Assembly (NCBI GenBank): GCA_017414145.1
Contig: JAFPQL010000251.1
Coordinates: 1 to 7,454 of the forward strand
Length of the DNA stretch: 7,454 nt
From: Oscillospiraceae bacterium
GTDB taxonomy: Bacteria > Bacillota_A > Clostridia > Oscillospirales > Ruminococcaceae
Reading direction: 5' to 3'
Both the position numbers and the translations under genes were made by a program. The notes under the pieces are model-generated. The model had not been told where the DNA came from and made no database searches. It was given only the letters and a program-made list of their open reading frames with translations. Positions 3,451 through 6,849 of this stretch are shown here, one piece after another (the first letter of the stretch is position 1; every line of letters starts with the position of its first letter).

Positions 3451-3479
3451 GTCCGAATGTGCATTTTGACCAACAGTGC

Positions 3480-3524
3480 AAAAGGAAAGGGCAGAGCCGT
3501 CTGCACGGGTGACGCTCTGCCCTT
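3480..3524 (-). terminator. Intrinsic terminator of the minus-strand RNA
   Basis: On the minus strand AAGGGCAGAGC (complement of 3514-3524) pairs with GCTCTGCCCTT (complement of 3487-3497) over 11 bp. A further GAC/GTC pairing inside the loop is possible. The stem is followed by TTTCCTTTT (complement of 3480-3488). It lies about 30 bases before the LRAT promoter and cleanly ends the transcript that begins near 3905. The plus-strand tail (CTTCTTGTT) is weaker but could also work. Confidence 0.8.
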
Positions 3525-3557
3525 CTTGTTATCCCTGATTGAGCGCTGCGGCGCGTC

Positions 3558-3590
3558 TTAACGCTGTGCCGCAGGCGGTTCCGACTGCAT
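3558..3590 (-). CDS. Candidate 10-aa ORF after motif copy 3
   Basis: The frame encodes MQSEPPAAQR and TAA, with AAAGGA 10 bases before the ATG. The same frame is open upstream and could start at GTG 3662-3660, just after motif copy 2, giving 34 aa with RKEVFPM at motif copy 3. The stop codon lies in the loop of the hairpin at 3546-3574. Evidence for translation is limited to spacing and to the pattern shared with the other two copies. Confidence 0.25.
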   Translation of the reverse strand: MQSEPPAAQR

Positions 3591-3606
3591 CGGAAACACT
3601 TCCTTT
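3588..3606 (-). repeat. Motif copy 3, ribosome-site-like
   Basis: On the minus strand this reads AAAGGAAGTGTTTCC, G and ATG, with one change (T to A) from the core of copies 1 and 2. That change lengthens the GGAA/TTCC self-pairing to 4 bp. A competing hairpin TTCCGA-TGCAG-TCGGAA (complement of 3579-3595) would place the ATG within structure. Confidence 0.65.
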
Positions 3607-3631
3607 CGGAGTTGTGCGAATGTACGGTTTG

Positions 3632-3727
3632 TTACGGCTTTGTCAGCCTCATCATCCTGCACATCGGAAACACATCCTTTTTTTTAGGGTTCGCGGTGCC
3701 TTTCTCCGGCGCCGCGGGAATTGTCAT
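3632..3727 (-). CDS. Candidate 31-aa ORF spanning motif copy 2
   Basis: The longer frame starts MTIPAAPEKG, runs through KKKDVFPM at motif copy 2 and ends MRLTKP, giving a small basic, proline-containing peptide. Its ATG (3727-3725) overlaps the TAA of a 4-codon frame MPDR (3741-3727) as TAATG, a layout that allows reinitiation, but its own ribosome site is poor. The internal ATG at 3664 has the motif's AAGGA 10 bases upstream and would give MCRMMRLTKP (3664-3632). Which start, if any, is used cannot be settled from sequence. Confidence 0.3.
   Translation of the reverse strand: MTIPAAPEKGTANPKKKDVFPMCRMMRLTKP
3662..3685 (-). repeat. Motif copy 2, ribosome-site-like
   Basis: On the minus strand this reads eight A residues, GGATGTGTTTCC, G and ATG. 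The core is identical to copy 1 and lies 10 bases before an ATG opening a 10-codon frame. Similarity to copy 1 continues past the ATG (TGCAG then GATGAT), so the two copies probably share ancestry or function rather than arising by chance. Confidence 0.7.
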
Positions 3728-3779
3728 TATCGGTCCGGCATTTGCCCCGGACAGCCGCTTTCCGCGCAGTTTGCGGGGG

Positions 3780-3803
3780 TTAAGCGGGGATCATCTTCTG
3801 CAT
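3780..3803 (-). CDS. Candidate 7-aa ORF after motif copy 1
   Basis: The frame encodes MQKMIPA and TAA. It is supported only by an AAAAAGGA site 10 bases upstream and by the matching arrangement at two other places in the same transcript. The frame is open upstream and reads KKDVFPM into this ATG, but no ATG, GTG or TTG with a good ribosome site is found further upstream. The peptide itself may be irrelevant and the translation event the functional part, or the motif may not be translated at all. Confidence 0.25.
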   Translation of the reverse strand: MQKMIPA

Positions 3804-3821
3804 GGGAAACACATCCTTTTT
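3801..3821 (-). repeat. Motif copy 1, ribosome-site-like
   Basis: On the minus strand this reads five A residues, GGATGTGTTTCC, C and ATG. AAGGA sits 10 bases before the ATG of a 7-codon frame. GGA...TCC is self-complementary at its ends and may form a very small hairpin. The 14-nt core AAGGATGTGTTTCC is identical to copy 2. Confidence 0.7.
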
Positions 3822-3911
3822 CTGTGATGAAAGATTCGATTCGTTGCGGGTCAGCCCATTGGTCTCTCCTCCGTTCCGGCTGTAGGAGTGCTACAGCTTT
3901 GGTTTGATTGT

Positions 3912-3940
3912 ATTATACCACATCTTTCAAGGAATGTCAA
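3912..3940 (-). promoter_or_regulatory. Consensus sigma-A promoter of the minus-strand RNA
   Basis: Reading leftwards: TTGACA (complement of 3935-3940), exactly 17 bases, then TATAAT (complement of 3912-3917) with TGG directly before it, a full-consensus promoter with an extended -10. The DNA upstream of the -35 (3941-3985) is AT-rich with T/A runs resembling an UP element. The start site should fall near 3905. This is the strongest promoter in the window, and the first conventional gene beyond it on this strand starts more than 500 bases away, past a terminator. Confidence 0.85.
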
Positions 3941-4155: not shown

Positions 4156-4184
4156 TTGCATTTTCTAAAAAACAATGCTATAAT
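4156..4184 (+). promoter_or_regulatory. Sigma-A promoter of the dockerin gene
   Basis: TTGCAT (4156-4161), 17 bases, TATAAT (4179-4184), with TGC just before the -10 (extended -10) and an AT-rich spacer with a run of six A. The start site should be near 4191. Only one base of the -35 departs from consensus, which fits a strongly expressed gene. Confidence 0.85.
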
Positions 4185-4190
4185 GTCAAT

Positions 4191-4296
4191 ATGTATATGT
4201 GCCGTGGGCGAAGTGCCGTCTGCCGTACCCCGCTGATTTGCAGCCGCAGTCTGCCGCGCCGCACCTTACATAATTTCATACTAAGGAGAGGTTTGA
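4191..4296 (+). other. 5' leader of the dockerin gene
   Basis: This is an inferred untranslated leader of about 106 nt. The first part is GC-rich with repeated GTGCCGT/CTGCCG elements and a small GCTG-ATTTG-CAGC hairpin (4231-4243). The end is AT-rich and carries the strong ribosome site AAGGAGAGG (4283-4291), five bases before ATG. There is no terminator-like T-run or recognisable riboswitch. An open ribosome site after a structured 5' end would be consistent with a stable, well-translated mRNA. Confidence 0.5.
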
Positions 4297-6849
4297 ATGA
4301 AATCACTTTTTAAGCGTGTGCTCGCAACCGCAACCGGTTACGTGCTCCTCGTGAGCCAGCTTGCCGCGACAGGCATCAACATCAACGCAGCTGACAGCGC
4401 TTCCGGCACCGTCCTTGACAAGGCATGGCTCACGGCTGTTCCTGTCGATGAGGCAACCATTCCCGCAATCGACGCACTTCCCGTTGTGATCGAAGGCGAA
4501 GATGCAGCAGCAGCCGGCTCCGTCCAGTGGGGCGAATCCGTCTGGAATGATGACCTTGAGACCGCAATGAACACCGTGCTCGGCGACAAGGATTCCGTCA
4601 GCGCCAGCTTCTTCGGCGCAAAGGCAAGAGAGCTTGTCATCAGAAATCTCGCAAGAACCAGCTACCTGACCCGCGCAGAGGCCACTGAGTTCGTCAACGG
4701 CTTCAGCAATGCGGATGTCAAGGTCACCAGCGCCGGCAAGCTGATCGCTGAGATGAGTGTGGACGGCGTCAATGAGAGAGTCGGTTCCGTCGCGGAGGAT
4801 GCCCTCACCAGACGCGGCATCAAGTTCGTCAACGAGGACGGCGATCCGGTCGTTCTGGACTGGAACAAGTTCCCGATGTCCGGCACAGTCACCGTTGAGG
4901 TTGACTACAGCAAGTTTGACAAGACTGCTTCTTATAATGTGGTCTTCACCGACGGCAAGAAGACCTATGACGGCTATGACGAGTTCGCGCAGTATGTGAC
5001 TGAGGAGTTCAACGCTGCTGTTGATTTCATCGCTGATGAGGCAACCGCACAGAACGCACCGAAGCTCGCTGAGGACATTCAGTACTACAGAGGCCGCTAT
5101 GAGACCCTGAAGGGCGAGGTCGAGTCCGTTGTCGATACGATCAACAAGATTCAGATCGAAGGCGATGATCCGGATCAGGTCTACGCTGATTACAAGCAGG
5201 CTGTCTACGATGCAATCGGCGATGCTGAGACCAGCGTCCGCTTCGCAAAGCGCGCAAGAGCTGAGATGTACAGACTGCCGGAGACCTTCATGGGCGCACT
5301 CACCGGCGACCGCGGCCAGGCATGGATCGACTATGTGATCGACGCTGCAAAGCGCATCGCAGGCGACAAGGTCAAGGTTACCCTTTCCGCTTCCGATATC
5401 GCGCATATCGTTGACGAAGGCTATGACTACAAGATCACCATTCCGAACGGCTTCTCTGCCGACGCAGAGTTCAAGCTCGCTGAGGAAGAAGCAGACCAGC
5501 AGGAAGTCTTTGACGCAATCGAGAAGGCTTACGGCGACCAGTGGGCAGAGGACGGCTACGAGCTCGTTTCCGTGACCTCCCACAAGGAAGTTACCCTGAA
5601 CGCTGAGACGGACAAGCTGACCGACAGCGAGAAGCTGTACTACAATGTCGTCCGTATCATCGACGAGGTTCTGCTGAAGAAGGTCGAGGAGACCACCACC
5701 ACGACCGAGGAGACCACTGAGTCTACTACTTCTTCGGAGACCACCACCGAGTCTACCACGACTTCGGAGACCACCACCGAGTCTACCACGACTTCGGAGA
5801 CCACCACCGAGTCTACCACGACTTCGGAGACCACCACCGAGTCCACCACTTCCTCGGAGACCACCACCGAGTCCACCACTTCTGAGTCTACGACTTCGGA
5901 GTCCACGACGACTGAGCTGACCTCGATTGATTCCTCCGAACCCACGGAGACCACCTCTGAGTCCACCACTTCTGAGTCCACCACTTCTGAGTCCACCACC
6001 TATGAGTCTACAACTTCGGAGTCCACGACGACCGAGATCACCACGACCTCTGAGTCCACGACCGCTGATGAGACTGCTCCTGTCACCGACGAGAAGGGCA
6101 ACACCTACGAGCTGAGCTTCGACGCTGAGGGCCTGTCTGAAGAGCTGGTCTACTGGTCTGAGGAGACTGAGAAATTCGACTTCGACAACCTCGAAGTGAA
6201 GATGAACATCAATGTGATCGCTGCTGACGGCACTTCTTCTGTGAAGACCATTGATGTCACCGACGCATTTGCTCCGGACAAGAAGTCCCCGCAGGATTTC
6301 GAGTTCAAGGGCTTCGGCAACTACAATATCCAGATCGCGCTGCAGGATGCAGACGCTGTTGAGACTGCACTCAAGGCTGAGATTGATGACGAGACTGTCG
6401 TCGCACGGCTCGTGAAGAAGTACAAGGTTGCAAACGGCAAGCTCGCTGACACCAACGGTGTGCTGCCGGTCATCCTCGTCCTCCGCGGCGACTTCGACCT
6501 CGACAACACGGTGACCGCGTTCGACGCAACCTGCGCTCTGACCTTCTTCAACCAGCTCCGCAACACCGGTTATTCGCTTGACGACATCCTGAGCTATGAG
6601 GATGAGCCTTCGTTCAAGGCACTTCCGGCTTCCATGCAGGCAGTCGGCAAGTATGCCCACTATGCAGCGGATGTGAACGGCGACGGTATGCTGTTTGCAA
6701 GTGATGCAATGGATATTCTGACTTACTTCAACTGGAGATACAACTCCGGCTGGGACGATGTCGATTGGACCGATGCTGACCTGGTCGGTGAGACCACCGT
6801 TCTGGAGAAGCTGCACAGCGATCCGTTCGCATTTGAGAAGAAGGACTGA
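4297..6849 (+). CDS. Secreted dockerin-bearing protein with Thr/Ser/Glu linker
   Basis: This 850-aa protein starts with a signal peptide: KSLFKR, a hydrophobic core to about residue 25, and a likely cut near ININAA (27-32). Residues 33-462 are an unrecognised acidic region, partly helical (225-330) with beta-like pieces (KVTVEVDY-type at 195-205, KVTLSASDI at 360-368). Residues 463-590 are a Thr/Ser/Glu linker built on ETTTESTTTS. Residues 595-730 look like a beta-rich module. Residues 731-815 form a dockerin with two calcium loops: D732-D734-D736-D743 in GDFDLDNTVTAFD, and D792-N794-D796-D803 in ADVNGDGMLFASD. The loops begin 60 residues apart against roughly 30-35 in classical type I dockerins. 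No sortase motif or C-terminal membrane anchor is present, so attachment is probably through a cohesin. No catalytic domain is recognised; a structural, adhesin or substrate-binding role is possible. Alanine codons are mostly GCA/GCT and lysine almost only AAG, unlike the GCG/GCC-rich neighbours. Confidence 0.85.
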   Translation: MKSLFKRVLATATGYVLLVSQLAATGININAADSASGTVLDKAWLTAVPVDEATIPAIDALPVVIEGEDAAAAGSVQWGESVWNDDLETAMNTVLGDKDSVSASFFGAKARELVIRNLARTSYLTRAEATEFVNGFSNADVKVTSAGKLIAEMSVDGVNERVGSVAEDALTRRGIKFVNEDGDPVVLDWNKFPMSGTVTVEVDYSKFDKTASYNVVFTDGKKTYDGYDEFAQYVTEEFNAAVDFIADEATAQNAPKLAEDIQYYRGRYETLKGEVESVVDTINKIQIEGDDPDQVYADYKQAVYDAIGDAETSVRFAKRARAEMYRLPETFMGALTGDRGQAWIDYVIDAAKRIAGDKVKVTLSASDIAHIVDEGYDYKITIPNGFSADAEFKLAEEEADQQEVFDAIEKAYGDQWAEDGYELVSVTSHKEVTLNAETDKLTDSEKLYYNVVRIIDEVLLKKVEETTTTTEETTESTTSSETTTESTTTSETTTESTTTSETTTESTTTSETTTESTTSSETTTESTTSESTTSESTTTELTSIDSSEPTETTSESTTSESTTSESTTYESTTSESTTTEITTTSESTTADETAPVTDEKGNTYELSFDAEGLSEELVYWSEETEKFDFDNLEVKMNINVIAADGTSSVKTIDVTDAFAPDKKSPQDFEFKGFGNYNIQIALQDADAVETALKAEIDDETVVARLVKKYKVANGKLADTNGVLPVILVLRGDFDLDNTVTAFDATCALTFFNQLRNTGYSLDDILSYEDEPSFKALPASMQAVGKYAHYAADVNGDGMLFASDAMDILTYFNWRYNSGWDDVDWTDADLVGETTVLEKLHSDPFAFEKKD
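5689..6066 (+). repeat. Tandem repeats encoding the Thr/Ser/Glu linker
   Basis: A 30-bp unit (10 residues, ETTTESTTTS-like) is repeated in register from 5731 to 5880 in five copies, with three units differing at only a few bases, and a partial diverged copy before it. It then breaks into shorter units of 12-15 bp encoding (S)ESTT(S) up to 6066, interrupted by a non-repeat LTSIDSSEPTE segment. All changes keep the reading frame. Such linkers in cellulosomal proteins are flexible and often glycosylated. The near-identity suggests recent expansion by slippage or unequal exchange. Confidence 0.9.

Follow-up and report, generated by a model that had tools for sequence, protein, structure and literature searches.

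Comparison across one genus of Oscillospiraceae gives good support for a stand-alone RNA gene built of tandem minigenes. The locus was recognized in the window, the whole 7,454-nucleotide stretch of contig JAFPQL010000251.1 that was analyzed, where it occupies positions 3940-3478 of the minus strand between two ordinary genes, with about 425 nt that hold no conventional gene. An earlier note on this DNA had proposed a candidate new RNA or small-peptide locus here, and the proposal has held up: the unit keeps its position and layout across the genus, and no Rfam match covers it in the 17 of 27 units scanned. Decay of an ordinary gene, which the note had raised as one contrary outcome, is excluded by the genus-wide conservation of the short frames and disfavored by that of position and layout. 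Searches of the open-licence literature with narrow terms returned, among the matches listed, no description of such an RNA or of such a layout.

The unit opens with a promoter that agrees with the consensus at 12 of 12 positions, as had been claimed: TTGACA at 3940-3935, a 17-nt spacer, and TATAAT at 3917-3912 with a TG before the -10, all on the minus strand, which would place the transcription start at about 3905. It is the sole 12/12 site in the window, where a promoter scan found eight sites with at least nine matches against a mean of 2.7 in shuffles, and TTGACA and TATAAT are common to all seven units of the set A1. As the earlier note had it, the strength of this promoter would imply an abundant RNA. 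The note had also spoken of a hairpin-rich stretch; the predicted fold of the transcript beats that of every one of 100 dinucleotide shuffles (z -4.33). Likewise confirmed are three repeats of one motif, each 19 nt long (3588-3606, 3662-3680 and 3801-3819) and 89-100% identical to the reference copy. They read AAAGGA[TA]GTGTTTCC[CG]ATG, in which an extended Shine-Dalgarno (SD) sequence stands at a fixed distance from a start codon, and each ends in an ATG that opens a tiny ORF. This design had escaped the earlier note, as had a further start ahead of the three and the recurrence of the layout in most species of the genus.

Four minigenes follow one another on the minus strand, the start that is not among the three repeats being the most 5'. 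Minigene 1 (3851..3872) has its SD, GGAGG, at 3872-3868, then eight bases and ATGGGCTGA, that is ATG GGC TGA at 3859-3851, encoding Met-Gly-stop in two codons. Minigene 2 (3780..3819) begins with the start element AAAGGATGTGTTTCCC, has its ATG at 3803, and encodes seven codons (MQKMIPA) before a TAA at 3782-3780. The same element introduces minigene 3 (3632..3680; ATG at 3664; ten codons, MCRMMRLTKP, then TAA) and, with one A for T, minigene 4 (3558..3606; ATG at 3590; ten codons, MQSEPPAAQR, then TAA). In the predicted fold, positions -13 and -12 of the SD core and the CC at -4 and -3, ahead of the ATG, are mostly paired, and such pairing could weaken initiation. A 3' hairpin with a T-rich tail (3478..3522, minus strand) closes the unit, joining a terminator to a conserved loop element with the loop ACCCGTGCA at 3510-3502. 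The terminator hairpin and tail of the earlier note are both there, but the stem (3522-3489) has 12 pairs and one bulge where an 11-bp stem had been described.

Homologous units are widespread in the genus of the window. One start pattern scanned over about 85,000 species genomes gave 42 loci, six of which are homologous units; all six lie in Oscillospiraceae MAGs (four naming rumen or omasum) and have in common the promoter, a Met-Gly-stop followed by more tiny ORFs, and the loop of the hairpin. The 5' part served for a sequence model (R1), which was rebuilt with 12 members (R2) and run on 30 genomes of the genus, of which it matches 28 at E 1e-5 or better, 26 of them clear by their ORF tables. 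In a further genome, G408, the R2 match is the sister RNA described below, but at the syntenic place, next to the divergent gene, there is a unit of the window's type that has two tiny ORFs and the loop ACCCGUG, bringing the homologous units to 27 of the 30 genomes; G416 is outside this count. Counts over 27 units given hereafter refer to the window plus 26 genomes, with G404 and G408 left out. G404 was set aside, since all it has is a similar promoter and a Met-Gly-stop ahead of what looks like an ordinary gene; at that locus (L108, about 1501-1700) the Met-Gly-stop is followed directly by a membrane-protein-like gene, which puts a minigene in the position of a cis-leader. Because G402, G409 and G419 have a second weak R2 match elsewhere (that of G419 being an ordinary gene start), we do not claim one unit per genome. 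Over 396 genomes of the family, model R1 matched 200 at E 0.01 or better; the weak matches (27 of 30 fetched loci were read) share little beyond the promoter and are not counted, and three R1 matches (L051, L055 and L063) resemble ordinary genes. The covariance-model search that the earlier note had suggested found no Rfam 15 match at gathering score over the unit in the 17 of 27 units scanned. The best Rfam match in the window, ctRNA_p42d, reaches 24.2 bits against a gathering score of 50 and covers the terminator only, and no RF00013 (6S) match appeared in the window at E up to 1.

The feature that these units hold in common is the shortness of their reading frames. One expression, by which some starts are overlooked (G417 and G411 have examples), collected 106 ATGs with an SD in the 27 units, two to seven per unit, against only six on the opposite strand. 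A stop follows the ATG within 10 codons in 90 of the 106 in frame, compared with 25 in the +1 and 34 in the +2 frame (Mann-Whitney p 5e-22, for units that are related and off frames that share that relatedness), and within two codons in 39, compared with 9 and 9. ORFs of at most 14 codons account for 95 of the 106, the other 11 running to 17-35 codons, and three consist of an ATG followed directly by a stop. Stop codons are TAA (49), TGA (45) and TAG (11 of 105); second codons are mixed (CAG 36, GGC 22 and TAC 9 of 106), and no shared codon run is visible by eye in the ORF table. Among the 27 units, minigene 1 reads Met-Gly-stop in 17, has MGC-, MGA- or MGR-stop in five, and MW-, MQ- or M-stop in three; it has 13 codons in G409 and is absent in G380. 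Minigene 2 is MQKYSSG-like in many species, and the peptides otherwise mostly vary, with amino-acid conservation partial in minigene 2 and some last ORFs and absent elsewhere. Since some residues of minigene 2 are kept, it may have a role as a peptide or in pairing. Comparison of the units shows that the frames are under selection to end early, together with selection for strong initiation signals and an ATG; by the same comparison, this selection acts on a transcript without a conserved gene behind it. The earlier note had left the choice between a regulatory RNA and an mRNA for small peptides. Because ORF length is kept and peptide sequence mostly is not, an RNA with start-stop ORFs is favored, and an mRNA for specific peptides is less so.

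The start motif itself is tightly bound to the unit. When the pattern is written without its ATG (AAGGRNGTGNNNCCN), 69 of 69 strict copies are nonetheless followed by ATG. The start pattern AAGGRNGTGYTTCCRATG was found 44 times in the 30 genus genomes, spread over 25 of them and always at the unit by coordinates, and the reversed pattern, used as a control, has no match in the 30; at this stringency, the motif is private to the unit. With all 44 matches at the unit, the idea that it is a decoy for ordinary genes with an identical start site in these genomes is unsupported. A similar 20-nt string occurs elsewhere: among the 36 non-homologous loci of the 42, 32 open ORFs of at least 66 codons. 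In other Oscillospirales, GAAAGGA[AT]GTGTTTCCCATG precedes ordinary genes (L004, L022, L038, L001; L012, L019, L025, L032, L039), which we take to be rplL-like in Merdivicinus and to encode an 81-85 aa protein in Oscillibacter and relatives. A separate idea, that the stop codons sit in hairpin loops, is unsupported (p 0.17; flanking pairing p 0.009).

The 3' hairpin shows the covariation that the earlier note had proposed looking for in the stems. In an alignment of 21 units, 94% of cells are paired and 10 of 12 pairs have changed on both sides, a count that 7 of 500 shuffles reach; the covariation score is equaled in none of 500 shuffles and falls far lower when the helix is slid. Of the six units outside the alignment, three (G411, G409 and G414) are without the loop as defined, carrying loop variants or lacking the loop, and three have hairpins identical to rows already included. 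The loop CCCGUGC is invariant in the 21 rows, which were chosen for having it, and is kept in most units; as judged by this comparison, the hairpin is a conserved RNA element. It is also more than a terminator, because no T-run directly follows it in, for example, G001, G418 and G410. Pairing of the loop is near chance both with the leader of the divergent gene (mean longest pairing run 6.8, against 6.4 in shuffles) and inside the unit (6.0 against 6.4).

The unit has a fixed divergent partner, while the genes downstream differ among loci, so the RNA is unlikely to be the leader of the next gene. In the window, the partner (4297-6849, plus strand) encodes a protein of 850 aa, signal-like at its start and dockerin-like in its C-terminal part, behind a promoter-like TTGCAT-17-TATAAT at 4156-4184 on the same strand. 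Its dockerin matches are weak (Pfam Dockerin_1, E 0.022; ScaH dockerin 8ajy, E 0.3), and no Pfam family was found above cut-off; the protein has Thr/Ser/Glu repeats. By tblastn it has about 25-73% identity to proteins across the genus, often over the first 460-500 residues. In 26 of 27 loci, the window being one of them, a relative is the neighbor of the unit; the exception is G001, where the locus ends too near the unit. The divergent gene starts 310-402 nt from the -35 in the 24 loci, including the window, where the match reaches the N-terminus; in G413 it begins 130 bases from the contig start. The leader of the gene is conserved, and TATGTATATGTG and CACATnnnGTACATAAT at its two ends look complementary (window 4156-4300); the intergenic region also carries a conserved TTTGTnGAAT..TACAATTTG block. 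On the other side, the next gene downstream in the same direction has an LRAT domain (3371-2532, minus strand) and its own promoter-like TTGCAT-17-TATGAT at 3450-3422 on that strand. It lies beside the unit in only three of the 27 loci (the window, L017 and L034).

Other genera of the family have a related unit, here called the sister RNA, which stands divergent from 6S RNA. It has the same kind of promoter and often a first ORF of 13-27 codons, and its later ORFs read, for example, Met-Tyr-stop, Met-Lys-stop or Met-stop behind AAAGGTGAGTCC[AG]ATG. A sister pattern blind to ORF length was found 13 times, in 9 of 148 genomes. Each of the 13 matches opens an ORF of 1-6 codons (in 11 cases of 1-2 codons), and in all nine genomes 6S RNA lies nearby and divergent (seven loci established by one search, two of these below Rfam's cut-off, and two by another). 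In a frame test of 6S loci filtered for CC-N-ATG, which includes five loci added after inspection, at most two codons follow the ATG in 16 of 33 cases, against 3 and 4 off-frame. The pooled test without this filter, on those 40 of 70 6S loci with the promoter, found no overall shortening (medians of 14 in frame against 12.5 and 9.5) and an excess of two-codon ORFs (20, against 6 and 7, of 112). Six of the 11 6S regions with listed ORFs hold, close to 6S, a gene of about 105-115 codons whose start is TPDLYTLVDEDG-like, and the neighbors of the sister RNA are other than those of the unit. Its place beside 6S is circumstantial evidence, consistent with a general growth-state role.

Other observations at the 6S loci are set down here in their own right. 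A unit of several hundred nt divergent from 6S, with no Rfam match where scanned, occurs in many genomes of the family (examples are L077, L079, L081, L082, L084, L086, L115, L134, L143, L157 and L167). In the genus of the window, the 6S-divergent unit tends to carry a single ORF of about 20 codons (MDxMEIVPxIDGGSC-like), with two-codon ORFs few or absent. Elsewhere in the order (L116, L119, L126, L130 and L136), an ORF starting MPKIKTHS or MPKLKTSK is divergent from 6S; we take it to resemble ribosomal L35, which would suggest an infC-rpmI operon there. As for a link to infC/rpmI, no L35-like start was found by pattern in 20 6S regions.

Several known systems resemble the unit in part. 6S RNA (RF00013), which mimics a promoter, is similar in its possible global role and has the sister RNA divergent from it, but the unit does not match the 6S model, and a separate 6S gene was found in all 14 genomes searched (10 of 14 over the cut-off). 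The lambda bar minigenes, a phage locus of SD, ATG, one sense codon and stop whose toxicity arises through peptidyl-tRNA drop-off, share that arrangement with the unit; the unit, in contrast, is a conserved chromosomal locus with mixed second codons. Sponge RNAs of the CsrB/RsmY type have repeated AAGGAUGU-like motifs in a short RNA, and repeated GGA motifs are present in the unit; however, each of its motifs ends in an ATG with a short ORF. A CsrA sponge was rejected because CsrA was not found, in 0 of 30 genus genomes (their completeness not being stated) or in 0 of 7 in a separate search, with a control that was positive in E. coli, B. subtilis and T. maritima. The downstream-peptide/yfr6 RNA is also a short RNA with a small ORF, but it is cyanobacterial, its ORFs typically have 17-100 codons behind a conserved 5' UTR, and tandem minimal ORFs are not described in the available part of its source (PMC2864571).

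A close parallel is with minigenes that work as gene leaders; according to the available part of PMC8708949, their action comes from ribosome binding, re-initiation and drop-off, and not from the peptides. Those of LEE1, LEE4, axe-txe and ycbK resemble the unit in having two- to six-codon ORFs behind SDs, and in both, the act of initiation or translation would outweigh the peptide (PMC8708949, available part). They differ in number and setting: one or two minigenes per gene leader, acting in cis, in the systems covered by that part of the source, against two to seven on their own transcript, with their own terminator and no conserved gene behind, in the unit. Compared with these cis-leaders, a minigene with an SD is present in the unit by sequence, and a regulated gene on the same transcript is unsupported.

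How might such an RNA work? If the SD-ATG starts are used, ribosomes would load repeatedly on the unit RNA, make none to about ten peptide bonds, and then stop at once. The peptides would then most likely be by-products, and the RNA would most likely act in trans by engaging initiating ribosomes on an abundant transcript, with the loop of the 3' hairpin perhaps offering a further contact; as an alternative outcome, ribosome engagement may keep the RNA itself folded and stable. That the RNA holds or draws initiating ribosomes and tunes translation capacity in trans is the reading we hold to, although only tentatively and at somewhat less than an even chance. Against it stand the 11 ORFs of 17-35 codons, the predicted pairing of the SD core and of the CC before the ATG, and the pooled 6S-locus test with no overall shortening. 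We rather doubt, while thinking it worth stating, the broader proposal that this is a new kind of regulatory RNA, in which a transcript made up entirely of start-stop minigenes captures and cycles ribosomes in trans as a ribosomal counterpart to 6S RNA and its RNA polymerase, with one form beside 6S in several genera and a private one in this genus.

The minigenes might instead shield the RNA from nuclease or early termination, the working part being the hairpin with its CCCGUGCA loop or another single-stranded stretch that pairs with targets. The strong covariation around a kept loop and the hairpins without a direct T-run speak for this, and there is precedent in the six-codon LEE4 mini-ORF, where a ribosome protects the mRNA from RNase E (PMC8708949, available part). 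Shielding would call for strong SDs but not for selection of stops after 1-10 codons, and no target was found, loop pairing with the divergent leader being near chance; we therefore regard it as a serious but unlikely alternative. A dedicated regulator, which controls the divergent secreted dockerin-like protein or is controlled along with it, would explain the near-constant partner at its narrow range of distances and the conserved intergenic blocks. We consider this improbable, since the conserved neighborhood may reflect only a shared intergenic region, the loop complementarity does not exceed chance, and the sister RNA by 6S has other neighbors.

The remaining explanations are less probable still. 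Functional tiny peptides, for example signals, encoded on a polycistronic mRNA would fit the recurrence of MQKYSSG-like and Met-Gly peptides in minigenes 2 and 1 and a last ORF of 24-26 codons with R[YC]GIGRK in five units (G003, G006, G343, G402 and G412). Yet peptide sequences, the number of starts and their order all change freely, ATG-stop and three-codon ORFs stand where other units have longer ones, and G006 keeps the letters near minigene 2 but stops at codon 4, all of which makes a peptide mRNA distinctly improbable. A toxic locus like lambda bar, working through peptidyl-tRNA drop-off, has in its favor that minigenes of two codons with strong SDs are the most toxic ones in the available part of PMC8708949. 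We give that account little credence, as the locus is kept genus-wide at one place; moreover, the second codons are mixed and UGA is nearly as frequent as UAA, so that the drain would not fall on any one tRNA. Least credible of all is an attenuator or leader of the downstream gene: a terminator does follow the tiny ORFs, as in leader-peptide attenuation, but the unit as leader of the LRAT gene is unsupported, given that gene's own promoter-like sequence and its presence in three loci only.

Overall, a genus-wide locus of two to seven minigenes, with frames selected to end after a few codons, suggests that an RNA can have the very start and stop of translation as its function, whereas the minigenes in the available part of PMC8708949 precede a gene. 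Loci like this are discarded by ORF finders, their ORFs being too short, and searches for RNA structure may overlook them, as most of the RNA does not adopt a single fixed fold; further loci of this kind may therefore be hidden. Through the sister RNA beside it, 6S RNA gains a candidate partner or counterpart, and the unit offers testable material on ribosome capture, re-initiation and drop-off in bacteria of the gut and rumen.
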